Under the pieces are notes generated by a model that saw only the letters and a list, made by a program, of their open reading frames with translations, did not search any database and was not told where the DNA came from. DNA of 64,000 bases from Parabacteroides sp. PH5-46. GTDB taxonomy: Bacteria > Bacteroidota > Bacteroidia > Bacteroidales > Tannerellaceae. The position numbers were made by a program, and so were the translations under genes. This document shows, in pieces, positions 6,104-55,987 of the stretch. Position 1 is the stretch's first letter, and each line of letters starts with the position of its first letter. Where the stretch lies: contig NZ_JARXXA010000020.1 in NCBI RefSeq assembly GCF_029892785.1, positions 1-64,000 of the forward strand. Direction: 5' to 3'.

Positions 6104-6134
6104 GCTCACGAGCGAATTTTATTTACACACGAGT
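6104..6134. repeat. Short palindrome array, 21-bp period
   Basis: GCTCACGAGC (6104-6113) and ACACACGAGT (6125-6134) have centres 21 bp apart with an 11-base AT-rich spacer. In reverse complement, both elements and the spacer align with the array at 44378-44450, so these belong to one dispersed repeat family. Confidence 0.6.
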
Positions 6135-6241
6135 AAAATAATACTCATCACTAACACAATGGTTTAAGCCTTCGCCGGAACCTTTTATCCCCTCTGCTGT
6201 TATATATTAAAGTAGCTTTATTAACATTAATTCGTAGAAAG

Positions 6242-7126
6242 ATGGATAAAAGAGTTTCACATTGGGCGTTCATCGCCATAATTGCATATATTTTCACGGC
6301 TTGTTCCAGTGAGAATGGCGGGATCGACAAAGAAGATCCGTCCGAAAATACAAGTATCACTCCTAATGAGTTAGTTTTAAAATCTTTTAAAAACCAGTAT
6401 ACAAATGCTCAACATATCACATGGGATACAACAGGTGGTTATTATGTTGCAGACTTTGAGATAGAAAACCAGCCTATCGTTGCATGGTTCAGCGAACAAG
6501 GAAAATGTTTTTTGGAGCAAACAAACATCCCTCATAATCAAATAGGGACAAGCGTTTCCAACTCCTTAGCAAACTCCGCATTTTCGGATTGGGAGATCAA
6601 TAAAACCTATACATTAGAGAAGCTGGGCTTTAGTTCGGTTTATATGATAGAAATGGCAAACAGCAGCGAACAGTCTATGCTGTATTTTACCAAACATGGA
6701 GACTTCATAAAGCGAATAGAGAACTCACAAGGTCATATTGAAACTCCAACCATTATACCGGATGCTATCAGCACAATCATTAATCAGCTATTTGACAATC
6801 CCGAGCTGGTAGACATTACAGAAGTAAATAGTGTTATTGATGAAATATCGGTTGGAGTACTTGACAACACCCTATATAAAGTAGCAGCTTTAGACAGTAA
6901 TTACGAATGGATATCAACCTTCTGGCATCTGGCAAAAGAAGCAGTACCTTCAATTGTATGGGAAGGATTCGTTAACTCAGATTACTACATATACAACCTA
7001 CAGGAAATAAAAGCGATGGAAGACAGCCAAAAGATAAATTATATATTCTATGTTGAAGACAGTGAAGAAAAGATGCACATTCTCAGCTTTGATTCATCCG
7101 GTGTCCTTCACTCAGTTCTGTCGTAA
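6242..7126 (+). CDS. PepSY-like putative lipoprotein
   Basis: The 294-residue protein opens with a lipoprotein signal ending IFTAC, so Cys21 is the predicted lipidated residue. The mature part resembles the periplasmic PepSY-like (DUF2874-type) domains common in Bacteroidetes. Two or three repeats each contain F..QY..A..I.WD...GYYVADFE-like segments, for example at about residues 48-75, and Ala-rich patches before ISTI. The function of this family is not established. It has no operon partner, and its last 44 bases overlap the 3' end of the opposite-strand phosphopantetheinyl transferase gene. The 258-base region upstream holds two repeats. Confidence 0.7.
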   Translation: MDKRVSHWAFIAIIAYIFTACSSENGGIDKEDPSENTSITPNELVLKSFKNQYTNAQHITWDTTGGYYVADFEIENQPIVAWFSEQGKCFLEQTNIPHNQIGTSVSNSLANSAFSDWEINKTYTLEKLGFSSVYMIEMANSSEQSMLYFTKHGDFIKRIENSQGHIETPTIIPDAISTIINQLFDNPELVDITEVNSVIDEISVGVLDNTLYKVAALDSNYEWISTFWHLAKEAVPSIVWEGFVNSDYYIYNLQEIKAMEDSQKINYIFYVEDSEEKMHILSFDSSGVLHSVLS

Positions 7127-7736
7127 AAGCCAGTACAAAATCATCAAATACGCGGTAATTCAAGTGATAAGCAGCAGCCTGTTGGGTTCGGGTTTCCGTA
7201 CCTGTCAGGCTGCCTGACGTATTATACGGAAAGGGCAACAAATGAAGATGCCTGATAAAATCCACCTCCTGTTGTCGCATTACTTTAAACAAGGTTTCCT
7301 TGGCACACCAGCAAATAAGCAAATGCTCTATTTCCTGCTTCGCATCAATAAAATCAGACTCCTCTTCACTCAAAAAACGGCTCCGTACATTTAATATACG
7401 TTTCCCGCGATATTCAATATCTATTCCAACAGGCAGACGGGGGGAAAGAAGAACCGCCACATAGTCTTTGGTATGAGAAATACTGATATTCAAATCTTTA
7501 GCAGAAAGACAAGGAGCCCCATCATCATAATAGGCGATAAGACTTTCCTCTCCTAATAATTCCTTAAGCAAGACACGGACAGCCAGCCATTCTCTCTTCC
7601 GATGTTCAAACTGAACACGTTCCAGAAACGGAAGATAATCAGAGGTATTTTCCAGCATGGAAAGCAAATGATCCGAGCTTTCTTCTACTTTCCAGATTCC
7701 CATAAGAGGGGCTGTTTCTTTTAGGTAAAGAGGCAT
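7083..7736 (-). CDS. 4'-phosphopantetheinyl transferase superfamily protein
   Basis: The 217-residue protein carries the Sfp-type signature: ISISHT at 84-89, GIDIE at 104-108 (magnesium-binding acidic residues) and WCAKE at 143-147 followed by LFKVM. Such enzymes transfer phosphopantetheine from CoA to a serine of a carrier protein. Its start codon overlaps the gldD stop by one base, making it last in ssb-gldE-gldD-PPTase. No polyketide or non-ribosomal peptide genes are nearby, so the carrier is unknown; it could serve fatty-acid ACP or another carrier. Its 3' end overlaps the convergent lipoprotein gene by 44 bases. Confidence 0.9.
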   Translation of the reverse strand: MPLYLKETAPLMGIWKVEESSDHLLSMLENTSDYLPFLERVQFEHRKREWLAVRVLLKELLGEESLIAYYDDGAPCLSAKDLNISISHTKDYVAVLLSPRLPVGIDIEYRGKRILNVRSRFLSEEESDFIDAKQEIEHLLICWCAKETLFKVMRQQEVDFIRHLHLLPFPYNTSGSLTGTETRTQQAAAYHLNYRVFDDFVLAFTTELSEGHRMNQS

Positions 7737-8317
7737 TACTTCTTCCAGCTAAATGATTGGATTAACACTGCAATATCTTCTTTCAGGTATTGTACGGCCG
7801 GTGCAATAGAATCAGCATTTGTAACACTGTTAAACAAAAGAGAACCTCTAAAAAAGTTTTTGGTGCTATCTGTCAAGGTAAACTGGATAGGAGAAACCGA
7901 TGCTCCGTCCAGTTGGTACAAACAAGCATACACCTGTTTATCCAGATCTTCATACGCCTGCTCAATAATACTCATGGCATCTTTAGATTGCCGGGACACC
8001 AGCAGCCGGGATTCCTCTATTACCTTTCCGAGTCCGGCAGGAGTAATCGACAAATACGTACAATAGATCTTGGCTCCCAGCGCAGGATACGATACATTTA
8101 TCCATCCGGCTGTATCGTCTACAGGTGGAAGTTCAATCTCTGCCAATGATGAAACATGAAACGAATAAGGAAGATCCTCCAACGGAAGTTGCACATAAAC
8201 AGCCTGCGGAGGTTCAATACGGAAATAGCCTCTCGGCTTAGGAGCATACTCCGAACAGGCAGATACGATCAGCAAAAGCAGTAGAATCCATAATGTAAGG
8301 AACAGCTTTTTATTCAT
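7736..8317 (-). CDS. gldD: Gliding motility / T9SS-associated lipoprotein GldD
   Basis: The 193-residue protein has a lipoprotein signal (residues 1-20, lipobox VSAC with Cys21) and then the GldD-typical PKPRGYFRIEPP. Flavobacterium GldD is required for gliding and appears connected with the type IX secretion system. The gene overlaps gldE by 8 bases and the phosphopantetheinyl transferase by one, as expected of translational coupling. Its presence together with gldE and sprA in this window supports a functional T9SS, though the organism need not glide. Confidence 0.92.
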   Translation of the reverse strand: MNKKLFLTLWILLLLLIVSACSEYAPKPRGYFRIEPPQAVYVQLPLEDLPYSFHVSSLAEIELPPVDDTAGWINVSYPALGAKIYCTYLSITPAGLGKVIEESRLLVSRQSKDAMSIIEQAYEDLDKQVYACLYQLDGASVSPIQFTLTDSTKNFFRGSLLFNSVTNADSIAPAVQYLKEDIAVLIQSFSWKK

Positions 8318-9641
8318 TTCCTTCCGATTCCTTTATGTAAGAAAACTTTACTTTCTGAATACGGCGATTATCCATTTCAAGTATCTGAAAACGAAAACCA
8401 TTGTATTCTATAATCTCCCTCCGCCTGGGAAAATCTCCTTTTATTTCCAATAACAAGCCGGCAAGGGTATCTACTTCATCCGTCAAGTCACCAAATTCAG
8501 ACGAGTCTACATCTATCACTCTAAAGAAGTCATTCAACAATATCTTCGCTTCAAATATCAGGCTACCGTCGGCCAAGCGGATAAACTGCTGTTCGTCCTC
8601 ATCATATTCGTCTGATATTTCTCCTACTATTTCTTCCAGGATATCTTCCATCGTAACAATACCCGATGTTCCACCAAACTCATCTACTACAATCGCCATG
8701 TGTATTTTATTCGTACGGAAATCTTCTAGCAAATCGTCAATCTTCTTTGTTTCCGGCACAAAGTATGCAGGGCGAATCAAACTTTGCCAGCGAAACGAAT
8801 CCGCTTTGCCTATGTATGGTAATAAGTCTTTTATATATAATATCCCTTTTATATTGTCTTCCGTTTCGGCATATACCGGAATACGGGAATAGCCGGACTC
8901 AATGATAAAGTCAAGTACATCTTTAAAGGAACTTCGTATCTCAACATCTTCCACGTCCAGGCGCGGCGTCATAATTTCACTGGCTGTTTTATTATAGAAC
9001 TTGATGATCTCTTCCAGCATCTCTTTTTCCTCCGGCATCTCCGTAGAAGTAAGTTCCAGGGCTTTCGATAACTCATCAACCGACAGATCATACTTTTTCT
9101 TTGTCAATGCCTTATTTATTATAGAGGTAGAATTAACCAGCACCTTAGAGAGCGGACGGCAAAGCCTTTCTACACTATTCAACAAAGGAGCCACCTTACG
9201 TGTAAAACTCAAGGCGTTTTTCTGAGCATATATCTTAGGCATAATCTCACCAAAGAGCAACAGCAGAAAGGTCAATACAATTGTCTCCAGAACAAAGCCC
9301 AGCAAAGGAGAGGAAGTAAAATCAATTATCCCGTTAATAGCATACGTACAAAGCATTACTATCGCCACATTCACAAAGTTGTTCGAGATAAGAATGGCTG
9401 CCAGCAAGTACTCAGAACGATCATGCAAGCGTAGTATAATTCCATCGGAAGCATATTTCTTTTCTCTTACATCGTTTATATCTACCGGATGAAGGGAGAA
9501 AAAAGCTACTTCCGAAGCCGAAACAAAACCTGAGATTACCAATAAAAGGGCTGCAATACAAAAGGCTACAAGAGTCTCTATTGTAAGCGCATGGATGGTT
9601 ACTTGATCAAATAAACCGGATAAAAAATAGTCTGAGTCCAA
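8310..9641 (-). CDS. gldE: Gliding motility-associated CBS-domain membrane protein GldE
   Basis: The 443-residue protein has the CNNM/CorC-like architecture: an N-terminal DUF21 region of about four membrane segments (roughly 20-150), a pair of CBS domains (about 205-330, including VPETKKIDDLLEDF and MAIVVDEFGGTSGIVT), and a C-terminal CorC/HlyC domain. Position next to gldD and after ssb marks it as GldE, which works with GldD in Flavobacterium. The CBS pair may bind adenine nucleotides; ion transport is possible from the family but untested for GldE. Confidence 0.93.
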   Translation of the reverse strand: MDSDYFLSGLFDQVTIHALTIETLVAFCIAALLLVISGFVSASEVAFFSLHPVDINDVREKKYASDGIILRLHDRSEYLLAAILISNNFVNVAIVMLCTYAINGIIDFTSSPLLGFVLETIVLTFLLLLFGEIMPKIYAQKNALSFTRKVAPLLNSVERLCRPLSKVLVNSTSIINKALTKKKYDLSVDELSKALELTSTEMPEEKEMLEEIIKFYNKTASEIMTPRLDVEDVEIRSSFKDVLDFIIESGYSRIPVYAETEDNIKGILYIKDLLPYIGKADSFRWQSLIRPAYFVPETKKIDDLLEDFRTNKIHMAIVVDEFGGTSGIVTMEDILEEIVGEISDEYDEDEQQFIRLADGSLIFEAKILLNDFFRVIDVDSSEFGDLTDEVDTLAGLLLEIKGDFPRRREIIEYNGFRFQILEMDNRRIQKVKFSYIKESEGNE

Positions 9642-9668
9642 AGGTGAACCGTATTAGTTAAACAATAT

Positions 9669-10151
9669 TTAGAACGGAAGGTCGTCTGCGTCATTCGTCT
9701 CAACAGGATCGATAGGCGAGGTAGGCTGACTTGGTTGGTTCCATTCAGTCGATTGAGCAGTTTGAGTCGGCTGAGCCGATTGAGTAGTTGTAGTAGCTTG
9801 TCCGTCATCACGTCTTGCTCCCCAGTTAAAGAACTCAACCCGGTCGGCATATATTTCGGTAACATAACGTTTCACCCCGTTCTGATCATCATAATTGCGG
9901 GTGCGAATCTTACCTTCTACATAAACACCAGAGCCTTTCTTTACCCATTTTTCCACAAAGGAAACCTGCTCACGGCGCACTACGATATTATGCCATTCGG
10001 TACGTTCGGGAACCACCGTACCATTCGCCAGCGTATATCCCCTCTCGGATGTTGCCAAAGGAAAGTTAGCCACTGCCATTCCACTATCAAAATAGCGTAC
10101 TTCCGGGTCTCTTCCCACATTCCCTATCAATATTACCTTATTTAATGACAT
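9669..10151 (-). CDS. ssb: Single-stranded DNA-binding protein
   Basis: The 160-residue protein has an OB fold over about residues 1-105 (starting MSLNKVILIGNVGRDPEVRY), a Gln/Thr/Pro-rich linker of short near-repeats, and the acidic tip DADDLPF used to recruit repair and replication proteins. It coats single-stranded DNA in replication, recombination and repair. It heads the ssb-gldE-gldD-PPTase run, 27 bases before gldE. In many Bacteroidetes mutY is immediately upstream of ssb; here a divergent membrane gene separates them. Confidence 0.97.
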   Translation of the reverse strand: MSLNKVILIGNVGRDPEVRYFDSGMAVANFPLATSERGYTLANGTVVPERTEWHNIVVRREQVSFVEKWVKKGSGVYVEGKIRTRNYDDQNGVKRYVTEIYADRVEFFNWGARRDDGQATTTTQSAQPTQTAQSTEWNQPSQPTSPIDPVETNDADDLPF

Positions 10152-10189
10152 AATAACAATTTCTTTATTTGACTTACAAAGAAAAACAA

Positions 10190-10227
10190 ATTCAATTACT
10201 TTGCAAAAAAGTAATTGAATATATTTG
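10190..10227 (+). promoter_or_regulatory. Promoter overlapped by a 10-bp palindrome
   Basis: TATATTTG (10220-10227) matches the -7 box of the Imm22/DUF3239 gene, and TTG at 10201-10203 is a possible -33. The perfect inverted repeat ATTCAATTAC (10190-10199) / GTAATTGAAT (10211-10220) brackets the -33 and touches the -7, the layout expected of a repressor operator. A TTG in frame at 10225 lies inside the -7 box and is not a credible start codon. Confidence 0.6.
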
Positions 10228-10257
10228 CCTCCTGATTATAAACTAACCAATAATATC

Positions 10258-11295: not shown

Positions 11296-11297
11296 GC

Positions 11298-13153: not shown

Positions 13154-15214
13154 TTATTCTTTTCCTTTCAATCTATAATTAGCTAGTCCGTCTTGCAGGA
13201 ATTTTACATATTTGGAAACATTCTCGTCATATGCATACGAGGGACCTAAGGGCTGACCTTCGTTATCCAGCAATACGTAGAAGGGTTGTGCATTGGCTCC
13301 GAACTTGCTGCGTTGCAGGTAGCTCCACTTGTCGCCTATCGTTTTCAGCTTGCGCGTTTTGCCATGCTCTTCTATTTCTATTGTTTGCGGAAGCTTTGTT
13401 TTATCATCCACGAAGAGGGTTATCAGTACGTAGTCTTTCTCCAGCAGTTGTTTTACTTTGGGATCTGTCCAGACGGAAGCTTCCATCTTTCGGCAGTTCA
13501 CACAACCAAAACCGGAGAAGTCAATCATGACCGGTTTGCCCGTCCGCTTGGCATAGGCCATACCCGCTTCGTAATCATCATATGGTGCATGCACTTCGCT
13601 TTCGTACAGATTAAAATCCTGCGTATACAAAGGAGGAGCAAAAGCACTGATAGACTTCAGCGGCGCACCCCACAAGCCCGGCACCATATACATAGCAAAG
13701 CCAAAGGATATGATAGCCATAAACAAACGGGGAACAGATACATATTTCAGGTCGCTATCGTGTGCAAACTTAATCTTGCCCAACAGATACAAACCAAGCA
13801 ATACAAAGATCACAATCCATAACACAAGGAATACCTCACGGTCGAGGATACGCCAGCCATACGCCAGGTCGGCAACGGAAAGGAACTTAAGCGCCAAAGC
13901 CAGTTCAAGGAAGCCCAATACCACCTTAACAGAGTTGAGCCAGCCGCCGGACTTAGGCATACTTTGCAGCATATTGGGGAAGATAGCAAATAAGCTAAAC
14001 GGTATAGCCAGCGCAAGAGCGAAGCCAAACATACCAATCGCCGGACCGGCTACACTACCCATCGTAGCGGCCTGCACCAGCAATGTCCCGATAATAGGCC
14101 CCGTACAAGAGAAGGAAACCAATACCAGGGTAAAGGCCATGAAGAAAATACTGATCAGCCCGGTAGTAGAGTCGGCTTTGCTATCCAGTTTGTTCGTCCA
14201 GGAAGCAGGCAATACCATTTCAAATGCTCCGAAGAACGAAACGGCAAATACCACCAATAACAGGAAGAACAGTATATTGAATATCGCATTGGTAGACAAA
14301 TCATTCAACGCACTAGCTCCGAACACTCCGGTAATAATCAAGCCCATCGACAAGTAAATAATAATAATGGCCAATCCGTACAGGATAGCATCTTGTATGG
14401 CTTTCCTTCGGTTGTTCGTACGCTTCAGGAAGAAGCTCACCGTCATCGGAATCATCGGCCACACACAAGGAGTAAGCAATGCGATCAAACCACCCAGAAA
14501 TCCCGCCAGGAATATAAAGATCCACGAAGTATCCGTAGCTGACAGTGTAGCGTCGCCATAACTCTTCATTTCGTCGATAACAGGAGCCCAGAGGTCTACA
14601 TCTTCTGTCAGTTTATCTGATACGGCAGAAGTCTGTACAGGCTTGGATGCATAGACCGGCGTTTCCGCAGCTACGGGGTTTTCTTCTACGGAAGTAGCAT
14701 CCGGCTCTTCAGTCGCAGGCTCTGTATTTACCGTACCGGACGCCACATCAGTCATTGTTATATGTTTGCTGTCAAAAGCGAACTCTTCCCTATCGGGAGG
14801 CAGACAACTTTCATCGTCACAAGCCATAAATTCCACTTCGCCTGCCAGTTTGAATTTCTTCGCATCTGTTACTTTAAACTTCTGTACGAAAGTGACACTT
14901 CCACCATACCAGCGCAAGTCCATAGCAAACAACTCATCGTAAACGGAAGTTGGCTTAACGGAAGCAACAGGTTTCCCTATCAGTTCTGCTCCTGTCAGCG
15001 TTTCAAAAGTAAAAGAGGTAGACACCGGTCCACCGGCAGGCAGATCCATGTCGTATAAATGCCAGCCTTTATCCATAGTAGCGGTAAAAGCAATTTCTTT
15101 CTCGGGAGTACCGGTGTCCAGCAGATTGATTTTCCATTTCACCGGTGTCATAATTTGCGCTTGGGCAGCAATCGTTATCAGCGTTAAAGCAAGAATATTC
15201 AAAAACTTTTTCAT
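13154..15214 (-). CDS. dsbD: Thiol:disulfide interchange protein DsbD
   Basis: Start at 15214 gives a clear signal peptide (MKKFLNILALTLITIAAQAQ). An in-frame ATG 48 bases upstream lies beyond the likely -7 box and is rejected. The 686-residue protein has a periplasmic DsbD-alpha-like domain (about 20-170, with CDDESCLPP), an acidic Glu/Pro/Thr-rich linker, eight membrane helices carrying the redox cysteines in LLTPCVWP and FSCTGP, and a C-terminal thioredoxin-like domain with CVNC at about 570-573. It passes electrons from the cytoplasm to periplasmic thiol proteins. It is first in dsbD-mazG-mutY, which abut or overlap. Confidence 0.95.
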   Translation of the reverse strand: MKKFLNILALTLITIAAQAQIMTPVKWKINLLDTGTPEKEIAFTATMDKGWHLYDMDLPAGGPVSTSFTFETLTGAELIGKPVASVKPTSVYDELFAMDLRWYGGSVTFVQKFKVTDAKKFKLAGEVEFMACDDESCLPPDREEFAFDSKHITMTDVASGTVNTEPATEEPDATSVEENPVAAETPVYASKPVQTSAVSDKLTEDVDLWAPVIDEMKSYGDATLSATDTSWIFIFLAGFLGGLIALLTPCVWPMIPMTVSFFLKRTNNRRKAIQDAILYGLAIIIIYLSMGLIITGVFGASALNDLSTNAIFNILFFLLLVVFAVSFFGAFEMVLPASWTNKLDSKADSTTGLISIFFMAFTLVLVSFSCTGPIIGTLLVQAATMGSVAGPAIGMFGFALALAIPFSLFAIFPNMLQSMPKSGGWLNSVKVVLGFLELALALKFLSVADLAYGWRILDREVFLVLWIVIFVLLGLYLLGKIKFAHDSDLKYVSVPRLFMAIISFGFAMYMVPGLWGAPLKSISAFAPPLYTQDFNLYESEVHAPYDDYEAGMAYAKRTGKPVMIDFSGFGCVNCRKMEASVWTDPKVKQLLEKDYVLITLFVDDKTKLPQTIEIEEHGKTRKLKTIGDKWSYLQRSKFGANAQPFYVLLDNEGQPLGPSYAYDENVSKYVKFLQDGLANYRLKGKE

Positions 15215-15247
15215 CCGGGTAATCATTATATTTGTGAAAAGATCATA

Positions 15248-15255
15248 CAAAGATA
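15248..15255 (-). promoter_or_regulatory. dsbD operon promoter, -7 box
   Basis: TATCTTTG on the minus strand matches TAnnTTTG, 33 bases before the chosen dsbD start codon. A clear -33 element is not seen. A four-copy palindrome array lies about 120-200 bases upstream. Confidence 0.6.
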
Positions 15256-15370
15256 ATGTCATTCATTGACAGTTGGTAATTTTTTTATTGTTTTTCTTTG
15301 TTTAAACAGCATCCTTCTTTCTAAATGACACTTCGTACTATTTTGTTCATTTAGTTATTATATTTTATGC

Positions 15371-15458
15371 TTTTCACACCTGTGAAATAAACTTTTTACA
15401 CCTGTGAAAAAGAAATATCACAACTGTGAAGTATTCTTTTCACAGCTGTGATATGTAC
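15371..15458. repeat. Four palindromes TCACANCTGTGA at exactly 22-bp period
   Basis: Four 22-bp units start at 15371, 15393, 15415 and 15437. Each carries a dyad: TTCACACCTGTGAA, TTTACACCTGTGAA, ATCACAACTGTGAA and TTCACAGCTGTGAT. The core CACANCTGTG is well kept; spacers are A/T-rich and variable. The array lies after gltA and upstream of the dsbD promoter. Units are too short and spacers too small for CRISPR. It may be a set of phased protein-binding sites or a tandem brick-type repeat. Confidence 0.85.
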
Positions 15459-15499
15459 AAAAGTTAAGTGCAAAACAACAAAATCAAAGCACTACTACA

Positions 15500-16843
15500 T
15501 CAACGTTTGCCAATGGGTACGTATTCCTGCTCGTCCAAAATATTCTTGTATGCCGGACGGATAATTCGTTTGCTCTTGAATATCAATTCTTCTATGCGAT
15601 GGGCTGTCCAGCCTACGATACGCGACATAGCAAATAGCGGCGTATAGATTTCCTGTGGCAAGCCAATCATCTCATACACAAAGCCGGAATAGAAATCTAC
15701 GTTAGACGATACCCGTTTCTTTGTTCCTTTATAATTGGCGAAACAGTCAATCGCCCGTTCTTCCAGCAGCTCGAGGAAAGCAAACTCTTTCTCGCGTTTT
15801 TTCTCTTTCGCCAGATCGCGAGCCATTTCCTTCAGCAACAAGGCACGCGGGTCTGAGATGGTGTATACGGCATGACCTATCCCGTAAATCAAACCGGTTT
15901 TGTTGTACACCTCTTTATTGAGCATACGCATGAAGTAAGCATCTATTTCGCTCTTGCTTTTCCAGTCTTTAATATTCTCCTTCAGATGGTTGAACATATC
16001 TACTACCTGGATATTCGCCCCTCCGTGCAACGGGCCCTTCAGCGAGCCGATACCGGCGGCAATAGACGAATAAGTATCCGTACCCGACGAACTTGTTACG
16101 CGAACCGTAAATGTAGAGTTATTCCCCCCACCATGTTCTGCCTGCAACACCAGTAACAAGTCCAACGTACGCGCATCCAGTTCGGTATAGTCGCGTTTCA
16201 GCATATACAGGAAGTTCTCTGCAATAGACAAGGTTTCGTCCGGATGGCGGATGTGCAACGACCGACCGTGGGTGCTGTGGCGATAAATATTATAGGCGTA
16301 AGCAATGATAGTAGGGAACTTGGAAATCAATTCAATTGACTGACGCATTAAGTTGTCGGGAGAGGTATCGTCAGGGTTAGAATCAAAGTTATACATTTCC
16401 AATACGCTACGTGCCAAAATATTCATGATGTTTTGGCCTTCCAGATCAATAATATTCATCTTTGTTTTCTGCTCCAGAGGCATATTATCGTTAATAAGCT
16501 CTTTAAAGCCTTCCAGGTCTGTCTTATGAGGCAATTCACCCGATAACATCAGATAAGCCACCTCTTCGAAACCAAAACGCTTTTCAGCGATCAGGGCATG
16601 CACTAGGTCTTCAATATCATAGCCCCGATAATACAATTTGCCGGGAATGGCATTCAGTCCGCCCTCCGGCAAACGCTCATAGCCCACTACATTCCCTATT
16701 TGTGTTAGCCCAACCAATACCCCTGTTCCGTCTTCGTTTCTTAAACCACGTTTCACATTGTATTGGGTGAACAGGTCGTTATCAATCTTGCAGGTAGTCT
16801 TTACAGACTCCGACAACTTATAAATCAAATACTCTTTTTTCAT
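15500..16843 (-). CDS. gltA: Citrate synthase
   Basis: The 447-residue enzyme condenses oxaloacetate with acetyl-CoA. Motifs include LLLVLQAEHGGGNNSTFT with the first active-site His, GPLHGGAN, and LIYGIGHAVYTISDPRA with the second His and nearby Asp region. PAYKNILD lies near the C-terminus. The protein is of the longer Bacteroidetes form and ends with EQEYVPIGKR. It is last in acn-icd-gltA, 20 bases after icd. This set feeds 2-oxoglutarate (glutamate) synthesis; whether the cycle closes cannot be judged here. Confidence 0.96.
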   Translation of the reverse strand: MKKEYLIYKLSESVKTTCKIDNDLFTQYNVKRGLRNEDGTGVLVGLTQIGNVVGYERLPEGGLNAIPGKLYYRGYDIEDLVHALIAEKRFGFEEVAYLMLSGELPHKTDLEGFKELINDNMPLEQKTKMNIIDLEGQNIMNILARSVLEMYNFDSNPDDTSPDNLMRQSIELISKFPTIIAYAYNIYRHSTHGRSLHIRHPDETLSIAENFLYMLKRDYTELDARTLDLLLVLQAEHGGGNNSTFTVRVTSSSGTDTYSSIAAGIGSLKGPLHGGANIQVVDMFNHLKENIKDWKSKSEIDAYFMRMLNKEVYNKTGLIYGIGHAVYTISDPRALLLKEMARDLAKEKKREKEFAFLELLEERAIDCFANYKGTKKRVSSNVDFYSGFVYEMIGLPQEIYTPLFAMSRIVGWTAHRIEELIFKSKRIIRPAYKNILDEQEYVPIGKR

Positions 16844-16863
16844 ATAATTTAGTCTTTAGGTAA

Positions 16864-18060: not shown

Positions 18061-18067
18061 AATACTA

Positions 18068-20317: not shown

Positions 20318-20372
20318 GGTTATCTAAGTTTATATTGTTGGTTTCTCATGCTCTATATACAAGTGCCACAAA

Positions 20373-20421: not shown

Positions 20422-20480
20422 TCATAGAGTTTTTCTATCGTACGGTTATACTTCGCCGGCAATTATCTGCTACAAATAAG

Positions 20481-29432: not shown

Positions 29433-29442
29433 ATAATTAAAA

Positions 29443-29472
29443 TGAAGAATAAAGAATGAAGAATGAAGAATT
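29443..29472. repeat. GAATGAA-type simple repeat
   Basis: Two to three near-copies of AATGAAGA are strung together upstream of the nusB promoter. Similar sequence recurs at about 36870-36924. The function is unknown. Confidence 0.5.
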
Positions 29473-29604: not shown

Positions 29605-29670
29605 GCATGCATGCGTTTTCGGAATTGCATGCATGCGTTTTCACAAACACATGCATGCAATTTTTTTCGG
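29605..29670. repeat. Three GCATGCATGC palindromes at exactly 22-bp period
   Basis: Units begin at 29605, 29627 and 29649. The first two share GCATGCATGCGTTTTC, and the third has ACATGCATGCAATTTT. CATGCATGC occurs at 29606, 29628 and 29650. The array lies 36 bases before the -33 of thyA. It shares period and copy number, but not sequence, with the arrays at 15371 and 55900. Confidence 0.85.
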
Positions 29671-39655: not shown

Positions 39656-39674
39656 TGGAAATTTTGAATATTTC

Positions 39675-42904: not shown

Positions 42905-42906
42905 TC

Positions 42907-44361: not shown

Positions 44362-44377
44362 CAGAGGGTAGAAAACG

Positions 44378-44450
44378 GCTCGTGTGCAAAATAAAATGTC
44401 CCATGAGCTATTATTTTTCGTTCGTGTGCAAAAAAACATAGGAAACGAGC
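44378..44450. repeat. Four imperfect GCTCRYGAGC dyads at exactly 21-bp period
   Basis: Elements GCTCGTGTGC (44378), TCCCATGAGC (44399), GTTCGTGTGC (44420) and GGAAACGAGC (44441) have centres 21 bp apart with 11-base A/T-rich spacers. The first two and their spacer align with the reverse complement of 6104-6134. The array fills much of the gap between trkH and ruvA. Confidence 0.75.
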
Positions 44451-44526
44451 TATTTTTCAGGGAAAGAAATAATATTTCATCTGCTTTCTACGTTATAATG
44501 GTTACGAGTTACAAAGAAAAGATAAA

Positions 44527-51100: not shown

Positions 51101-52535
51101 GGTAGCCTATAAAGCTCTTGAATATTCTACGCGTTTTCTTATGATGGTAAGGCGTATGAATATACAGTATGGGCTGACGGACGGTATGATGGTTCCCGGT
51201 TTCCGTCCGGAAATAGGCGATATATTCGGACAGGGAAGGATGAACAGTGCCTTCGCTCCCGGTTTGGGCTTTGCTTTCGGAAGCGTAAGAAGAAGCTACA
51301 TTGACGAATTGGCAGATAGAGACTGGCTGGTCATGTCGCAAACCAATGTGAATCCCGCAATCGTAAACAGTTCTAAAAACCTGACTGTAAACATGAACCT
51401 GGAGCCTTTGCCCGGTTTGAAAATAGACCTGAACGCGCTTCGCACTGATACCCGAAATACGGAAATACAGTATATGTACAACGGCGTACCTGAACTGTTT
51501 GGCGGTAGCTTCACCATGACAACAGTAGCCATTGGCTCTATGTTTGAAGGAATGGGAAGCCTGGAGAACGGTTATGCCTCGAAGACATTTGATAAGTTCC
51601 TGAACAACCGCTCGGTTATAGCCAGCCGCCTGGAGAGCCAATATGCGCAAACGTCCTACCCCAACGCAGGATTCCTAGAGAATACCTCTTTGGGCGGACA
51701 GCCATATGATCCGGAAAACGGAGCGGTAGGCCTCAACTCTACGGATGTACTGATCTCTGCTTTCCTGTCGGCTTATACAGGAAAGAATCCTAGCAGTATC
51801 GCCATCACAGCCTTCCCTTCTATATGGAGAATGCTTCCCAACTGGCGGATCACCTACGAAGGGCTGATACAGATACCTTTGGTACGACGTTACTTCAAAT
51901 CACTGGTATTAAGCCACCAATACCGGGCTTCATACAGTGTAGGCTCATTCAGCTCCTTCCTGAGTTGGGTAGACAGCGGTAAAGACGGACTTGGTTACAT
52001 TCGGGATGCCTTGAACAACCCGACCCCTTCTTCTCCGTACGATATATCTGCTGTCAGTATATCAGATGCGTTTAATCCTCTGATTGGAATAGACGGAACA
52101 TTACTGAACAATGTTACATCCCGCATGGAGTATCGTAAGACAAGGAATCTTAACCTGAATATTTCGTCCTATCAGCTGGTAGAAACACACAACAACGAAT
52201 TCATTATCGGCTTAGGATATAAGCTGACGGAGTTTAATAAGGTATTAAAACGGAAAGCCTCGCAAGGATTCAGCAATGATCTGACTGTCAATATGGATTT
52301 CTCATTTCGGAAGATGCAATCTTTGATCCGCAAAATAGAAGATGCCAGTGCGCAAGCCACCAGTGGAAACATAGCGAAGACAATTCAGTTCTCGGCAGAC
52401 TACGGCCTGAGCCGCGCCCTCTCCGTAAAAGCATTCTACGATTTGCAAATCAACGAACCCCTGGTGTCCAGCACGTCTTACCCCACATCCAACTCCAGTT
52501 ATGGCGTAAGCCTTCGCTTCTCCCTCGCCCAGTAA
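45111..52535 (+). CDS. sprA: Type IX secretion system outer-membrane translocon SprA (Sov)
   Basis: This 2474-residue protein has an N-terminal signal peptide (MKRRFTYIAILALVLSG) and the length typical of SprA/Sov (about 2400-2500). Most of it is beta-rich. Segments include DFDSQKLKLAYAGDEDEIIKTLEAGNVSM near 225-250, SYLDDFES and SVEVWVNELRLTDF. The C-terminus ends in an aromatic outer-membrane beta-strand signature, SLRFSLAQ. In Flavobacterium SprA forms a 36-strand barrel through which folded T9SS cargo passes. It overlaps ruvA by one base. With gldD and gldE at 7.7-9.6 kb it indicates a T9SS, although no clear cargo C-terminal domain is seen here. Confidence 0.95.
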   Translation: MKRRFTYIAILALVLSGAGLFSLNADYLIYSTALPEIELIQEEDTIPARFPVAKTMPEEYEDLLKNSPADLRDPDNVKTDIEYDIKTGIYIVRTKIGDMEIGTPLSLTPEEYQNYSLQESIRSYFRKKNEEEYLKAADNQFNITDMQFDIGPADRIFGPGGVRVRTQGSAEVTLGLKQNKTDNPSLPERSRKSTYFNFDENVQLNVQATVGTKVNFGMNYNTETTFDFDSQKLKLAYAGDEDEIIKTLEAGNVSMTTNNSLINGGAALFGIKADLQFGKLRVNTIFAQQNSESKTVNSKGGVQTRSYEVAIDKYDENRHFFLGHYFRDNYDYALEKLPYIRSSITINRVEVWITNKQSTYDQARNIVAFTDLGEYNRIGNPSVSPSGSRAIPYNGANTLYSTLQGMEDVRDIGKVTQTLKTFMESGREFEEIESARRLSESEYTVNKQLGYISLKVQLQPDEVLAVAYDYQYNGTAYQVGEFSTDNSTNTSNCLFVKLLKSTSMSPDMMFWDLMMKNVYSLDAYSVEKEKFRLNVMYQSDTTGTYLNYIQEGNIKDTLLLRVMNLDRLDSKNEPYPDGIFDFVEGITVLPDNGRVIFPVVEPFGSHLKAKIGNPAIAEKYVYQELYDSTLTVARQIAEKNKFILRGEYKASSGSEIQLGATNVARGSVRVTAAGAVLTENVDYVVDYTSGTVTILNDNIISSGTDVSVSLENQSTYSMQRKTMMGLDLNYDFSKNFSLGGTIMHLSEMPMTTKTSFGEESVKNTLWGLNTSYRGESQWLTNMLDKLPLLTLTKPSQITFNAEFAHLIAGHYENEHTGGYSYLDDFESTQSGFDLLNPYPWNLASTPYEEGGNAKFPEADYSNDVRYGMNRALFSWYYIDGMFTRPTSSLMPGHIKRNYRDLLSNHYVRAIYVKELFPDKQLSYNEATMIPALNVAYYPNERGPYNLDADGMNPDGTLMNPEKRWGGMMRRIDQSDFETANIEYIEFWMMDPYIYKPNSSGGDLYFNLGEISEDILKDGKKFFENGLPIDGDTSKVETTVWGKVPKQQSTVYAFDNTAGARKLQDVGLNGLSSDEERDFPAYNEFRQKLEGKLSNEAMTKIYNDPAGDNFHHYRGSDFDEAETGILDRYKYYNGTEGNSRSSEDSGERYDTSAKTIPDVEDLNQDNTMNKNEKYFQYKISLRPEHMVVGSNYIVDKRVANVDLENGTSEDVAWYQFKIPVKEYSDVVGSIRDFKTIRFMRMYMTGFQDTTILRFGKFEMVRGEWRSYQQDLYNPSTPPAEIGSLDVAAVNIEENGKKVPVNYVLPPGVTRMTDPGQPQLVQLNEQALSMKITGLASQDARAVYKNTSFDLRQYKRLQLFTHAEAFATSAPGATSVSDNDFSVFIRLGSDYKNNYYEYEVPLKLTPPDNYLNNNPAHREAVWPTSNLLNFRFEVLTNLKLNRNKHKRGGINGVTYQTVYSEYDPDNTKNTISVIGNPSLSEVKVIMIGVRNKTGVTKSVEVWVNELRLTDFNEEGGWAANANLNVALSDLGTVNLAGRIETAGFGGLDQSVNERRMDDYKQYSVATDLELGKFFPEKAKVSIPLYYAYSKEIIDPKYNPLDQDIKLKEAVDAVETKAEKDSITSFARERSIVKSVAVNNVRVDIKSKNPMPYDPANFTIGYSFSETQRNTPDTEYETTKDYRANFGYSYSPYVKPYRPFDKLKTNNGYTRYIKQLSLNYVPASINFQTVMMRNYYETQLRNVDNPGENNIPVSFSSEFYWDRAFSLSWNFTNSLRATFSSGTNARIEEPHVQVNKKLNYDSYQLWKDSVKQSITDLGRPMKYDQSFNVSYSLPFQFIPVLDWISSTVTYNATYNWERGAEVDETTEIGNTIRNQRQINTQGSFNFLNLYNKNKFLRGVNQKYGSIKSAPTNTRNNRDQAQQQKKEPKKREMEVQLSPDSAILVNHGMLTKRMRITARGEDGKLYRIKFKARDFSNIIIENKDTVKLKLTLVPEPPKTEGVAYKALEYSTRFLMMVRRMNIQYGLTDGMMVPGFRPEIGDIFGQGRMNSAFAPGLGFAFGSVRRSYIDELADRDWLVMSQTNVNPAIVNSSKNLTVNMNLEPLPGLKIDLNALRTDTRNTEIQYMYNGVPELFGGSFTMTTVAIGSMFEGMGSLENGYASKTFDKFLNNRSVIASRLESQYAQTSYPNAGFLENTSLGGQPYDPENGAVGLNSTDVLISAFLSAYTGKNPSSIAITAFPSIWRMLPNWRITYEGLIQIPLVRRYFKSLVLSHQYRASYSVGSFSSFLSWVDSGKDGLGYIRDALNNPTPSSPYDISAVSISDAFNPLIGIDGTLLNNVTSRMEYRKTRNLNLNISSYQLVETHNNEFIIGLGYKLTEFNKVLKRKASQGFSNDLTVNMDFSFRKMQSLIRKIEDASAQATSGNIAKTIQFSADYGLSRALSVKAFYDLQINEPLVSSTSYPTSNSSYGVSLRFSLAQ

Positions 52536-52550
52536 GGAAGGGAGAGGAAG

Positions 52551-53576
52551 CTACTTACCTCTCAATTGTGAGAAGCGTTTCAGGCCTTTCAGATAAAAAG
52601 AAAGGATCAAGCTTTGCTGCATAAGCTCCGGAACCGGATTAATGATTGTGCGTCGAAGATTTTCCTGCCGGACGGGTTTGTAAACAGGTAAAAGACGATA
52701 AAACTCTTTCCGTGCTCTATATACGGCTCGGGCATTTCTTGGATGGCCTGTTAGTAAGAATTTTAATGCTGCAATGTAATCAAGCCAGAAGCGGGCGCGC
52801 ATAACATGTTTCAAGTCTTTCTCCGGCAGATTCTTGTAAACCATCAACAGGCTATTTCGGAAATTCAGAAATGTTTTTCGCGGATTTTCTGTTGTCAAGG
52901 TAGCTCCGCCCACATGATAGACTACCGATTGAGGGATACACATCAAACGATATCCCCGGCAACGCAGGCGCCAGCACATCTCCACCTCTTCCTGATGCGC
53001 AAAAAAGCGGCCATCAAGGCCTCCCTCCGCCTTGAATACGGCGGTACGGATGAACAAGCAGGCTCCGGTTGCCCAAAGCACGTCTGTCGGCGTATCATAC
53101 TGTCCTTTATCTTCTTCTACATGGTGCAAGACTCGTCCCCGACAAAAGGGATAGCCATATCTATCGATATACCCTCCTGCTGCTCCGGCATATTCAAAAT
53201 AACCCTTATTATGATAGGCTAAGATCTTAGGCTGTACACAAGCTATTGCAGGATCGGCATCCAGGGCTTTCAGCGGAGCCTCAAGCCAGCCGGGAGTTAC
53301 TTCCACATCGCTATTCAGCAACACGGTGTATTCGGCATCTATCTGCTCTATAGCACGGTTATAGCCTTCAGCAAAGCCATAGTTTTCAGCTAAACGCAAA
53401 ACGCGTACGCTTGGAAATTTATCTTGAAGCATTTGGATAGAATCGTCCGTAGAACCATTGTCGGCCACTATAACCTCCGCATATTCCGCAGGAGAATTCG
53501 CCACTACAGAAGGTAGAAAACGCTCCATTAACTCCCGTCCGTTCCAATTTAATATAACAACAGCGACTTTTTTCAT
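52551..53576 (-). CDS. Family 2 glycosyltransferase
   Basis: The 341-residue protein has the GT-A fold of family 2. It starts VAVVILNWNGRELMERFLPSV, has ADNGSTDDS at 38-46 for nucleotide binding and NSDVEV at 88-93 as the DxD-like metal site, then a later CWRLRCRGYRL and PQSVVYHVGG acceptor region. It probably adds a sugar from a nucleotide donor to envelope glycan or lipid; the donor is unknown. It overlaps the acyltransferase gene by 4 bases and is last in mtaB-acyltransferase-GT. It is convergent with sprA. Confidence 0.9.
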   Translation of the reverse strand: MKKVAVVILNWNGRELMERFLPSVVANSPAEYAEVIVADNGSTDDSIQMLQDKFPSVRVLRLAENYGFAEGYNRAIEQIDAEYTVLLNSDVEVTPGWLEAPLKALDADPAIACVQPKILAYHNKGYFEYAGAAGGYIDRYGYPFCRGRVLHHVEEDKGQYDTPTDVLWATGACLFIRTAVFKAEGGLDGRFFAHQEEVEMCWRLRCRGYRLMCIPQSVVYHVGGATLTTENPRKTFLNFRNSLLMVYKNLPEKDLKHVMRARFWLDYIAALKFLLTGHPRNARAVYRARKEFYRLLPVYKPVRQENLRRTIINPVPELMQQSLILSFYLKGLKRFSQLRGK

Positions 53577-54460
53577 ACCGATTCACGTTTATACTTCCAG
53601 CGTTTATGCGTCCATAACCAGTAAGCGGGATTCCGCATAATACACTCTTCCATCATTCGGGCATATTGCTCTGTAAGCCAAAACTCGGGTGTATCTTTGG
53701 CAGATTCTACCATTGGTATCATTTCCACCTCATAGTATCCTCGTTTTAGCTTCCGGATATCAACAAAAACAACCGGCAAATCCAATTTCCGGGCAATGCG
53801 TTCGGCTCCGGTAAAGAAAGGGGTATCCTGATTAAGGAATGAAGTCCAATAATGAATATTCACTTTACTGGGCGTCTGGTCAGACATAAATAGGACAGCT
53901 GATTTTTCTTTATTTTTTTCCAAACGCACAATCTCTCTTCCCGTATTATTCTTTTTAATCCCTCTGGCGCCAAAACGTGTTCGCAGATAGATAAACAAAC
54001 GATCAAAGGCTTCACTCTTTAACGGGCGATATATTTGATATTGCTGGGTATGTTTGAACAATACATTTACTGAAGTGAACCATTCCCAGTTACCATAATG
54101 CCCCATATACAGGATAACGCATGAATGCTCTCCTTCCGACAGACGATCTATCACTTCCGGATTCTTCAAATGGGCTCGCTTTAATACTTCTTCTTCTGAA
54201 ATATGCGCCAGCTTGATTGTCTCTACTATGTAATCGCAGAAATGGTGGTAAAATTCCCGCTCCATCCGGCGTAATTCACTATCCGTTTTCTCGGGAAAAG
54301 AGGCTTTCATGCTTCGCCTTACTACCCGTAAACGATAGCCTACCACCTTATATACCAATATGTATAATACATCGGACAACACATACAGCAAACGCATGGG
54401 AAGTATAGCGTGCAACTTTACCCATCCGTACAATAAAGCATAAGCAATTTTATTCCACAT
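53573..54460 (-). CDS. LpxL-type lysophospholipid / lipid A acyltransferase
   Basis: The 295-residue protein has an N-terminal membrane segment and the H-x4-E catalytic motif HYGNWE with His121 and Glu126. Downstream it has RFGARGIKKNNTGREI and MSDQTPSKV, as in the LpxL/LpxM/HtrB group. It probably transfers a secondary acyl chain to a lipid A precursor on the cytoplasmic face of the inner membrane; other acyl acceptors are possible. It overlaps the mtaB end by 11 bases and the glycosyltransferase by 4. Confidence 0.9.
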   Translation of the reverse strand: MWNKIAYALLYGWVKLHAILPMRLLYVLSDVLYILVYKVVGYRLRVVRRSMKASFPEKTDSELRRMEREFYHHFCDYIVETIKLAHISEEEVLKRAHLKNPEVIDRLSEGEHSCVILYMGHYGNWEWFTSVNVLFKHTQQYQIYRPLKSEAFDRLFIYLRTRFGARGIKKNNTGREIVRLEKNKEKSAVLFMSDQTPSKVNIHYWTSFLNQDTPFFTGAERIARKLDLPVVFVDIRKLKRGYYEVEMIPMVESAKDTPEFWLTEQYARMMEECIMRNPAYWLWTHKRWKYKRESV

Positions 54461-55781
54461 AGTCTATTATTTTACAGGTCAGAGCTGTTTGCTCATCATT
54501 CCACCCGGCAAGCAATACTTTTTGAGGTTTGTTTATCAGAGATGCGTTATACGCAGTCTCAACCTTTACATAATTAGCAGTAAAGCCATGCATCATACCT
54601 CCGTGCCTGGTATGTTCAAAAAGTACATCTGCCGACTGACCGATAAACGACTCATAAAATGCATGCAACTTTCGATCGGAAATATCCAGCAGTTGTTTGC
54701 TACGTGTATGTTTCACCTTAGGATCTACCGAATGAGCGATCTTCAGCGCCTGCGTACCCGGACGTTCCGAATAGCTGAATACATGCAACTGCGAAATATC
54801 GAGCCCTTCGATAAAAGTCTGCGCTTCTTCAAACAACTCATCCGTTTCTCCGCGAGTACCTACTATTACGTCTACTCCAATGAAGGCATGCGGCATAACG
54901 CTTTTTATTTTATCTACCTTATAACGGAATAAGGCTGTGTCATATTTTCGTTTCATCAACTTTAGCACCTCATCGCTCCCACTCTGTAAAGGTATATGAA
55001 AATGCGGAGCAAAGCGCTTACTGTTCGCCACAAAATCAATAACCTCATCCGTAATCAGATTCGGTTCGATAGAGGAAATGCGGTATCGGACAATACCTTC
55101 TACTTCATCCAACGCACGAACCAGATCGACGAAGGTTTCTCCTGTGCTCTTGCCAAAGTCGCCGATATTTACTCCCGTCAGTACAATCTCTTTGCCACCC
55201 TGGGCGGCTACTTCTTTTGCCTGCTCTACCAAGCTGGCAATAGTACCATTACGACTCCGCCCCCGGGCAAAAGGTATGGTGCAATAGGTACAGAAATAAT
55301 CACATCCGTCCTGTACTTTCAGGAAATGTCGCGTCCGGTCGTCAGACGAGCAAGACGGAGCAAAGGTGCGAATATCTTTCGTAGCCGAAGCAACAATGGC
55401 TCCCGCTTCCTGTTTTTTATTCAGATTTTCCAGATAGGAAAGAATATCCAGTTTTTGTTCGGCACCCAATACCAGATCTACTCCCTCGATGTGGGCAACC
55501 TCTTCGGGCTTCAGTTGGGCATAGCAGCCGGTAACTACTACGAATGCTCCCGGATGTTGTTTGCTGATCCGGCGAATGGCCTGACGACATTTTTTGTCTG
55601 CCAATTCAGTCACCGAACAGGTATTAACTACACAAATATCAGCTTTTTCTCCAGCTCTTGCTTTACGAACACCCTGCTCGGCAAGGACCTTTCCAATCGT
55701 AGAGGTTTCGGCAAAATTCAGCTTACAGCCTAAGGTATAATAGGCGGCTGTCTTATTCTCAAAAACGGAATTATCTATCAT
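54450..55781 (-). CDS. mtaB: tRNA threonylcarbamoyladenosine methylthiotransferase MtaB
   Basis: The 443-residue radical SAM enzyme adds a methylthio group to t6A37 of tRNA. The N-terminal UPF0004 domain holds cluster cysteines Cys19 (TLGCK), Cys55 and Cys86. The radical SAM cluster is C160-x3-C164-x2-C167. The C-terminal part includes IGQSADVLFEHTRHG, a TRAM-like region. Motifs favour MtaB over MiaB and RimO. It is first in mtaB-acyltransferase-GT and divergent from the acyl-CoA synthetase gene, with a repeat array between them. Confidence 0.93.
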   Translation of the reverse strand: MIDNSVFENKTAAYYTLGCKLNFAETSTIGKVLAEQGVRKARAGEKADICVVNTCSVTELADKKCRQAIRRISKQHPGAFVVVTGCYAQLKPEEVAHIEGVDLVLGAEQKLDILSYLENLNKKQEAGAIVASATKDIRTFAPSCSSDDRTRHFLKVQDGCDYFCTYCTIPFARGRSRNGTIASLVEQAKEVAAQGGKEIVLTGVNIGDFGKSTGETFVDLVRALDEVEGIVRYRISSIEPNLITDEVIDFVANSKRFAPHFHIPLQSGSDEVLKLMKRKYDTALFRYKVDKIKSVMPHAFIGVDVIVGTRGETDELFEEAQTFIEGLDISQLHVFSYSERPGTQALKIAHSVDPKVKHTRSKQLLDISDRKLHAFYESFIGQSADVLFEHTRHGGMMHGFTANYVKVETAYNASLINKPQKVLLAGWNDEQTALTCKIIDYVE

Positions 55782-55803
55782 TATACTGCGCTGTTTAAAG
55801 ATG

Positions 55804-55811
55804 CAAAGGTA
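55804..55811 (-). promoter_or_regulatory. mtaB operon promoter, -7 box
   Basis: TACCTTTG on the minus strand matches TAnnTTTG, 22 bases before the mtaB start. TTTG-like sequence at 55825-55828 is too close to be an ideal -33. Confidence 0.55.
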
Positions 55812-55899
55812 GTGATTTCCATTGCAAAAAGAAAAAGCGTATCAATTGCGGATAAACTTCCTTGGAACAGACAGACTTCTGCCGATATTTTTGTTGGCT

Positions 55900-55987
55900 G
55901 ACGGCCGTCGGCCAATTGGTTGATAATTGTCGGCCAGTTGGCAGACAGCTATCAGTCAACTGGCCGATAGCTATCGGTCAACAATTT
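55900..55987. repeat. Four 22-bp units of two alternating palindromes
   Basis: Units begin at 55900, 55922, 55944 and 55966. Each has a GAYNNNNRTC dyad (GACGGCCGTC, GATAATTGTC, GACAGCTATC, GATAGCTATC). In the first three a CCANNTGG-like dyad follows (CCAATTGG, CCAGTTGG, TCAACTGG). Dyad centres fall every 11 bp. The last unit decays to TCAACAATTT. The array lies between the divergent mtaB and acyl-CoA synthetase promoters. It is distinct in sequence from the other arrays but shares the 22-bp period. Confidence 0.85.

Follow-up and report, generated by a model that had tools for sequence, protein, structure and literature searches.

The window, the 64,000-nucleotide stretch of Parabacteroides sp. 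PH5-46 analysed here, carries groups of short palindromes in the gaps between genes, and their regular spacing raises the question of what such arrays are and which factor, if any, reads them. Five loci had been claimed in an earlier note. Three of them were clear (15371-15458, 29605-29670 and 55888-55987), and the other two (6104-6134 and 44378-44450) turned out to be weak, with imperfect palindromes. They are listed below; F numbers denote sequence families, of which there appear to be about ten among the host arrays as sorted by us.

15371..15458, F8 array: four TTCACANNTGTGAA dyads at 22-bp spacing, between the minus-strand genes 15500-16843 and 13154-15262
29605..29670, F3 array: three GCATGCATGC dyads (the last one imperfect) spaced 22 bp apart and joined by TTTT/AAAA linkers, in a gap between divergent genes
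55888..55987, F7 array: four GAYRRYYRTC dyads at 22-bp spacing, interleaved at the half-way points by a second dyad set and flanked by the divergent genes 54450-55781 (minus strand) and 56038-57756 (plus strand)
6104..6134, weak: two imperfect sites, GCTCACGAGC and ACACACGAGT, with a spacing of about 21 bp and F9-like by eye
44378..44450, weak array resembling F9: the scan recovered two GCTCGTGTGC-like sites 42 bp apart, and the others were picked out by eye

The array class in intergenic DNA

The 22-bp-period palindrome arrays were found to be a genome-wide, intergenic class in the 864 kb of host DNA that were sampled. The intergenic sample consisted of 277 pieces with 59,224 bases (C1 1-399744, C2 and the window). 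Palindrome pairs at lag 22 numbered 38 in these pieces, compared with 4.3 ± 2.0 in ten first-order Markov controls, and lags 21 and 23 gave 6 and 3 pairs, which is the background level. The outcome named as refuting in the earlier note, arrays no commoner than in shuffled intergenic DNA, was not seen over the 864 kb. Pairing was also elevated at lags 11, 33, 44 and 55, because a mirror-symmetric 22-bp repeat demands such lags. When arrays were scored by period, 42 were obtained at 22, 8 at 14, 4 at 21 and 0-2 at each remaining period from 15 to 34, and five Markov controls yielded 0-1 period-22 arrays each. At a slightly lower score cut, 28 of 44 arrays had exactly four units.

The F3 array at 29605-29670 was not called by the chain detector that scored the period-22 arrays; its sequence groups it with six arrays of C1 and C2. 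Further F8 arrays of the host lie in C2, C11 and C14. No even-centred palindrome reaching 5 of 6 matched pairs was found at either weak locus, and by eye both resemble the GCTCGTGAGC-like family F9. The F9 scan of the 864 kb returned 300 matches, which form five pairs at lag 21 and one at any other lag between 12 and 34, and it did not recover the 6104 locus.

Sets of about four short palindromes with a spacing of exactly 22 bp occur in other gut-type Bacteroidales genomes. Small intergenic samples gave five 22-bp arrays in 17.9 kb from the family, one in 20.9 kb from the order and zero in 3.5 kb from genus-mates. Rfam detected nothing in the window at gathering scores. As a separate observation, GGCTACACCC repeats are common to five Bacteroides loci; they may be terminators and were not counted as evidence.

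HU-HIG genes and their upstream arrays

The arrays are associated with genes for HU-HIG proteins (NCBIfam HU_rel TIGR01201, Pfam PF18291), a large family of the DNA-packaging HU type with an HU/IHF-type domain. In most of the relevant members this domain is fused to a winged-helix-like C-terminus. Burroughs et al. are said to have predicted in 2017 that HU-HIG proteins have roles against invasive DNA, and a search of the open-access literature found no DNA target for them. Matches to PF18291, ordinary HU included, number 12 to 34 per genome in four named genomes.

Long HU-HIG genes were defined as those encoding at least 190 aa, all 31 of which are matched by both models, and an array was counted if it lay within 260 bp of the gene start. 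Across 11 Bacteroidales genomes, a 22-bp array was found upstream of 28 of the 31 assessable long genes, including 7/7 in the host, although the genes are related by descent and the counts are not independent. The same 31 upstream windows gave 0/31 at every other period from 15 to 30, and shuffling of the 30 windows without N produced no array in 20 rounds. As background, 36 of the 654 genes in the host sample have an upstream array; the host comparison of 7/7 long HU-HIG genes with 33/651 other sampled genes (Fisher p = 1.8e-9) includes seven long genes of which only three fall inside the sampled DNA. The long gene L300 had no array, L253 had a degenerate one seen by eye, and the sequence upstream of L280 was masked. 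A further long gene, L295, had no array in its 95 bp of upstream sequence.

Among the short HU-HIG genes, 24 of 30 lacked an upstream array, the exceptions being the five-member L228 clade (5/5 with an array) and L266, which has a 23-bp array. The re-framed short genes L287 and L291 had no upstream array. Arrays of the F3 type 419-507 bp and 373-439 bp upstream of the short HU genes L219 and L221, respectively, were too distant to be counted. Ten HU-HIG loci from outside Bacteroidales, mostly encoding short proteins (L331-L340), showed no upstream arrays.

The eight host operators consist of eight different palindromes, and each long gene of the host has its own. In the L228 orthologues of G029, G024, G025 and G027 the 22-bp arrays are kept while the palindromes diverge stepwise. 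Over 33 operators, protein similarity and array similarity were correlated (Mantel r = 0.21, p = 0.0002; rank correlation 0.14, p = 0.016), and the correlation was weak among the 28 operators outside the L228 clade (r = 0.115, p = 0.047). The proteins L274 and L277 are 71% identical, and the score between their arrays is -0.07. L228, whose array family is F2, has no winged-helix tail. C/G swaps account for 47% of the substitutions in F2 versus 0-21% in seven other families, a tolerance that minor-groove reading by the tail-less L228 would predict.

The position of the arrays relative to the promoter was also regular. In 12 of the 28 long-HU operators the first base of a TAnnTTTG sequence (-7 box) lies 20-25 bp ahead of the array edge, compared with 10 other such boxes over 150 bp; an exact box at the fixed distance is absent from the remaining 16, and from 4/5 operators of the L228 clade. 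Many operator arrays lie right after the -7 box, in a probable transcribed leader, as would suit arrays that act as RNA, with hairpins stacked in a leader or 3' end and serving as attenuators or terminators. In F5 and F7, moreover, a few mirrored positions paired above chance. Against this, mirrored positions in F1, F3, F4 and F8 paired at no more than chance, and the variable S positions of F2 paired worse than chance (z -1.7, -3.6 and -0.5), with one outer position above it (z 2.8); the units in this test had been pre-filtered by likeness to their family. The spacing is exact across unrelated families, and arrays occur in all gene orientations. Since the mirrored bases mostly do not co-vary and the spacing does not shift by even one base pair, the RNA hairpins considered earlier found no support, and we regard this explanation as very improbable.

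Ordinary regulon operators, by which dispersed arrays would switch their neighbour genes, were judged unlikely as well, though less so than hairpins. Judged by orientation, 31 of 39 arrays are upstream of at least one gene, but no clear dependence on orientation was seen (14/52 divergent, 9/45 and 5/37 tandem, and 4/16 convergent gaps). At dispersed arrays the -7 box was found at 0/72 ends in the -26 to -19 window, where 1.2 were expected. Of 46 array-facing genes 43 were scanned, and among the 25 of 100 Pfam families listed, HU-HIG and the overlapping general HU model were the only two to reach three genes, the others occurring in at most two. A regulon defined by neighbour function was dropped, there being no common theme among the Pfam families listed.

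Dispersed arrays, operators and known repeats

Dispersed arrays were compared with the operators of the same genome. Matches were obtained for 19/36 in the host, 7/7 in G029, 3/11 in G062 and 0/2 in G061. The host matches had profile scores of at least 0.79 and the rest at most 0.59, with the cut chosen after the scores were known; matches scored at least 0.91 in G029 and at least 0.97 in G062. In the window, the F8 array scored 0.79 to the array upstream of the HU-HIG gene L220 (G000:C2:38072), with 0.55 for the next-best host operator, and the F7 array scored 0.96 to the array upstream of the HU-HIG gene L224 (G000:C6:30322). Of the options raised at the outset, phased protein-binding arrays are thus supported, and HU-HIG is named as the candidate protein family by gene position in the 11 genomes together with the array-to-operator matches.

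The other 17 of the 36 host arrays match no operator, and the window F3 array is likewise without an operator match or a partner gene. Eight of 11 arrays in G062, with 7/17 of its HU matches examined, and the two weak arrays in 200 kb of G061, with 8/34 examined, had no operator match. None of the 18 PF18291 matches in the host could be identified as a partner for family F1, F3, F6 or F9, a PF14848 search gave no additional HU gene as partner for F1, F3 or F6, and no HU-HIG position coincides with an F1 position among the matches listed. One genome, G034, carries F2 arrays although its best match to L228 (53.9 bits) falls short of a close orthologue.

The dispersed copies behave like a dispersed repeat, and the arrays could be mobile repeats of the MITE or REP kind, with a 22-bp build that serves their own movement, the proximity to HU-HIG being incidental or due to hitch-hiking. 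The F7 copies start and end alike and agree over about 14 bp of flank. The window F7 array is missing in four genus-mates, where the flanking genes are at most 100 bp apart versus 270-292 bp for its own gap; identity in this empty-site comparison was about 75%, at which the edges could not be placed. F2 arrays were present in 3/60 genomes, host counted. One of the three Y1-type transposase genes (PF01797), L137, has an array of the orphan family F3 197 bp upstream. However, the other two have no array within 3.3 kb, and one in three is not far from the background of 36/654. Divergence among the F7 copies amounts to 10-27% of bases, with dyads and spacing preserved, and incidental placement would not yield arrays at 28/31 long HU-HIG genes versus 0/24 short ones. 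Behind gene 15500-16843 the comparison between species was uninformative: arrays there vary or are absent, and in L057, the closest relative, no gap could be aligned, hence no empty site. A purely mobile repeat was considered rather doubtful, and the two readings can be compatible, with arrays spread by copying and used by HU-HIG.

REP/BIME palindromes, which are associated with RAYT transposases and recognised as hairpins, are likewise dispersed, intergenic and of several families, whereas the stem bases of the arrays mostly lack covariation. We know of no REP/BIME element with a fixed 22-bp, four-unit build. The BrickBuilt elements of Porphyromonas gingivalis, also suggested earlier, share with the arrays their occurrence in Bacteroidales, intergenic location and tandem units of near-equal length, and they number 19 in one genome (PMC4596501). 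As described there, they have a 23-nt unit, 18 full repeats in one element and IS-type terminal inverted repeats, and the passages used mention no protein partner. The arrays, in contrast, have 22-bp and usually four units, many unrelated families and a place as HU-HIG operators; by inspection their units do not match the published BrickBuilt consensus, and F7, the family inspected for its ends, terminates in GCAGAAAATTGTTGGC-like flanks rather than the GAGACC-type terminal inverted repeats reported there. The arrays are accordingly not BrickBuilt elements, although their dispersed copies do resemble a repeat in behaviour.

A proposed role as private HU-HIG binding arrays

The most likely role of the arrays is that of private HU-HIG binding sites. 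Judging from gene position and palindrome matching, each paralogue probably recognises a private four-dyad array, through which it represses its promoter, and also occupies the dispersed copies. Every paralogue would read its own palindrome, and four adjacent dimers, one per 22 bp (two turns of 11 bp each), would form one phased nucleoprotein. One copy stands at the paralogue's own promoter, often with its edge about 22 bp beyond the first base of the -7 box; occupancy there would block transcription, and tens more copies between genes would be chromosomal binding sites of the same protein, for architecture or titration.

In parS-ParB, matS-MatP and IHF, too, a DNA-binding protein that is autoregulated or architectural has sites scattered over the chromosome. 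Each of these has one protein and one site type, whereas here one genome would hold many paralogues, each with a private set of sites. The new element is the pairing between an individual HU-HIG paralogue and its array.

More tentatively, and by analogy with KRAB zinc fingers tracking vertebrate repeat families, Bacteroidales may carry parallel chromosome-marking systems. Each paralogue would build a four-dimer nucleoprotein, with two turns per dimer, on its own tens to a hundred dispersed arrays and would repress itself at an operator built in the same way, and protein-array pairs would be gained, diverge and be lost as units between species.

HU-HIG is an expanded, unexplained family of gut Bacteroidales, and most of its long members now have a predicted target that can be synthesised. 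Arrays paired with HU-HIG would explain a class of intergenic repeats. If true, several mutually private nucleoprotein systems would exist in one cell, which would change the view of how chromosome architecture diversifies.

Palindrome arrays in host and relatives

The genome of Parabacteroides sp. PH5-46 comprises 4.42 Mb on 39 contigs, and the window lies on contig C20. For a 447-aa protein encoded in the window, the best matches among named genomes were from Tannerellaceae. Contig C2, most of contig C1 and the window were sampled (864 kb), and a simple ORF rule for gene prediction gave 277 intergenic pieces (59,224 bases). In these pieces 38 palindrome pairs were found at lag 22, compared with 4.3 ± 2.0 expected; lags 21 and 23 were at background, and lags 11, 33, 44 and 55 were raised. 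Direct repeats agreed with the palindromes, with lag 22 in 56-68 regions, lag 21 in 8-9, lag 14 in 12-15 and few at other lags except 42 and 44. When dyads were chained at a fixed period, period 22 had 42 arrays; period 14 had 8, period 21 had 4 and the remaining periods between 15 and 34 had 0-2 each. Markov controls at period 22 yielded only 0-1. The array class is real, and the intergenic palindrome spacing proposed in the earlier note, 21 or 22 bp, was upheld at 22 bp but not for lag-21 palindrome pairs. Period 14, with its 8 chains and 12-15 direct-repeat regions, formed a second excess in the intergenic DNA of C1, C2 and the window.

At a lower cut 44 arrays were scored, of which 28 consist of exactly four units, 10 of five, 3 of three, 2 of two and 1 of six. 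We sorted the arrays into about ten families (F1-F10), which have period and unit number in common but not sequence. The five loci named in the window were as follows.

Array loci in the window
6104-6134, weaker, F9-like by look; missed by the F9 scan
15371-15458, F8 array
29605-29670, F3 array
44378-44450, weaker, F9-like by look; only two sites, 42 bp apart, in the F9 scan
55888-55987, F7 array

Three of the five were clear arrays. In the scan, lag 21 accounted for five pairs of F9 matches, and any other lag between 12 and 34 for one. A short AATGAAG tandem repeat lies near the F3 array (29441-29471).

Other Bacteroidales share the array class with different sequences. The loci surrounding one gene, 79 in all, yielded 32 chains of period 22, 11 of period 21, 6 of period 23 and 0-4 of other periods. 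Within 200 kb of Parabacteroides bouchesdurhonensis, 11 arrays were found at period 22 and none at all other periods from 15 to 30; 200 kb of B. xylanisolvens gave only 2 weak arrays at period 22 and 3 at period 21. Very long arrays were seen at three loci of Tannerellaceae MAGs (L064, period 23, 19 units; L070, period 21, 20 units; L097, period 21, 14 units), four units being usual. Five Bacteroides loci (L103, L104, L122, L125 and L127) carry GGCTACACCC repeats with 22-bp spacing at an identical position, which are possibly terminators.

Arrays upstream of HU-HIG genes

In a Pfam scan of 43 of the 46 genes facing arrays, the top family was HU-HIG, found in three and tied with the overlapping general HU model. 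A PF18291 search of the host genome gave 18 hits, comprising long (at least 190 aa, with a winged-helix-like tail) and short HU-HIG proteins, fragments and ordinary HU. All seven long genes (197-215 aa) and the 139-aa L228 had a 22-bp array of four or five units upstream, between 24 and 187 bp from the start codon. Each of these eight operators was of a different family.

Operator arrays of host HU-HIG genes
L220, F8
L224, F7
L227, F4
L228, F2
L229, F5
L225, F10
L217 and L218, two further palindromes

Two paralogous short genes, L219 and L221, are preceded at a distance of about 370-510 bp by F3-type arrays, which may hint at the partner of F3.

HU-HIG loci were also collected from genomes G029 and G034, Bacteroides fragilis, B. 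xylanisolvens, Parabacteroides bouchesdurhonensis and Parabacteroides sp. Marseille-P3160, and by protein search in relatives, using the best-scoring part of the hits. After duplicates, misframed and very short rows were dropped, 31 long genes (11 genomes) and 30 short ones were retained. Among these best-scoring hits, 28 of the 31 long genes had an array within 260 bp upstream (18 with four units, 6 with three, 3 with five and 1 with six). The three misses were L253 (degenerate array by eye), L280 (masked upstream) and L300 (none). Scanned at the remaining periods of 15 to 30, the same 31 windows gave no array, and 20 rounds of shuffling the 30 windows free of N gave none. Six of the 30 short genes had an array, namely five members of the L228 clade and L266, and the remaining 24 had none upstream. 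When dropped rows were re-framed, the short L287 and L291 had no array, L293 was an incomplete gene, and the long L295 had none within the 95 bp covered upstream. L266, a 166-aa HU-HIG of Bacteroides fragilis with a tail unlike the Gly-rich type, has a five-unit 23-bp array, AACATCCGGATGTT.

Upstream arrays at any gene were found in 36/654 cases in the host, 12/133 in G062 (P. bouchesdurhonensis by its array counts), 4/165 in G029 and 0/143 in G061 (likewise B. xylanisolvens). The contrast between 7/7 long HU-HIG and 33/651 other host genes gave a Fisher p of 1.8e-9, although such p-values are too small because the genes are related by descent.

In 12 of the 28 long-gene operators, the Bacteroidales -7 box TAnnTTTG begins 20-25 bp ahead of the array edge, and ten further boxes are spread over 150 bp. 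One of five L228-clade operators (L285) has the box at this distance. At 72 ends of dispersed arrays, none occurred between -26 and -19 (1.2 expected). Many operator copies therefore begin near the expected start of transcription, and no comparable link to a promoter is seen in the dispersed copies.

Probable pairing of HU-HIG proteins with their palindromes

The RNA hairpins suggested in the earlier note were not borne out. Among units pre-filtered by family likeness, mirrored positions showed no co-variation in F1, F3, F4 and F8; in F2, three variable S positions matched less than chance and one outer position above it; a few were positive in F5 and F7, and F10 had too few units for the test. 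This suggests that the arrays act as DNA, not RNA. C/G exchanges made up 47% of substitutions in F2; the range across the seven remaining families was 0-21%. An HU arm reading the minor groove would allow these exchanges, as judged from this one family, whose paired protein, L228, has no winged-helix tail. All 31 long proteins matched PF18291 and TIGR01201, and their HU portion can be aligned to known structures of HU and IHF. Weak matches (E up to 0.1) to DIP2311-like_C (7/31) and HTH_DeoR (6/31), together with a conserved C-terminal pattern, support a putative winged-helix tail.

Arrays of four L228 orthologues diverge stepwise, and all keep the 22-bp spacing.

Arrays of L228 orthologues
G029, 67% identity; palindrome same
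G024, 74%; arms same, centre new
G025, 60%; centre same, arms new
G027, 45%; palindrome largely new

Across 33 operators, protein identity correlated with array similarity (Mantel r = 0.21, p = 0.0002; rank correlation 0.14, p = 0.016), with mean similarity 0.56 above 50% identity and 0.27 at or below 35%. Much of this is supplied by the L228 clade, without which r was 0.115 (p = 0.047, 28 operators). As a counter-example, L274 and L277 are 71% identical with an array score of -0.07, each having three weak units.

Dispersed copies and a proposed model

Of 39 host arrays, 22 match an operator of the same genome; three are operators themselves, leaving 19 of 36 dispersed arrays. Matches score at least 0.79 and the rest at most 0.59. 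Dispersed arrays matched an own-genome operator in 7/7 cases in G029 (at least 0.91), 3/11 in G062 and 0/2, both weak, in G061. The strict F2 pattern, with 36 matches per strand in the host, 102 in G029 and 6 in G034, was absent from the other 57 genomes, 17 of the same genus; G034 has F2 arrays and no close L228 orthologue.

New copies may arise by a MITE-like copying route. F7 has twelve further host copies (73-90% identity over 67 to 111 bp) with edges and a little flank in common. At the window F7 site, the flanking genes are 270-292 bp apart in the host compared with at most 100 bp, without an array, in four genus-mates (G003, G004, G009 and G017); in G012, outside this comparison, matches to the two genes lie 1.8 kb apart. 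Gaps of every orientation held arrays (14/52 divergent, 9/45 and 5/37 tandem and 4/16 convergent). Orphan families such as F3, which has no HU-HIG partner, may be linked to a transposase, since a Y1-type transposase gene is preceded, at 197 bp, by an F3 array (L137, 1203-1291; similarity 0.93-0.95 to the six sampled F3 arrays). However, the other two of the three host Y1-type loci had no array, and one in three is near background.

Among the matches listed in open-access literature (titles and abstract beginnings), none concerned DNA sites for HU-HIG or the array class. HU clades were reportedly studied by Burroughs et al. 2017.

From the observed arrays, their spacing, their association with HU-HIG genes and their matching to operators, we infer that one HU-HIG dimer would read one dyad, and that four dimers at two-turn spacing would bind cooperatively as a single phased complex. 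Such a complex would repress transcription at the protein's own promoter; at dispersed arrays it may mark or shape the chromosome, or titrate the protein.
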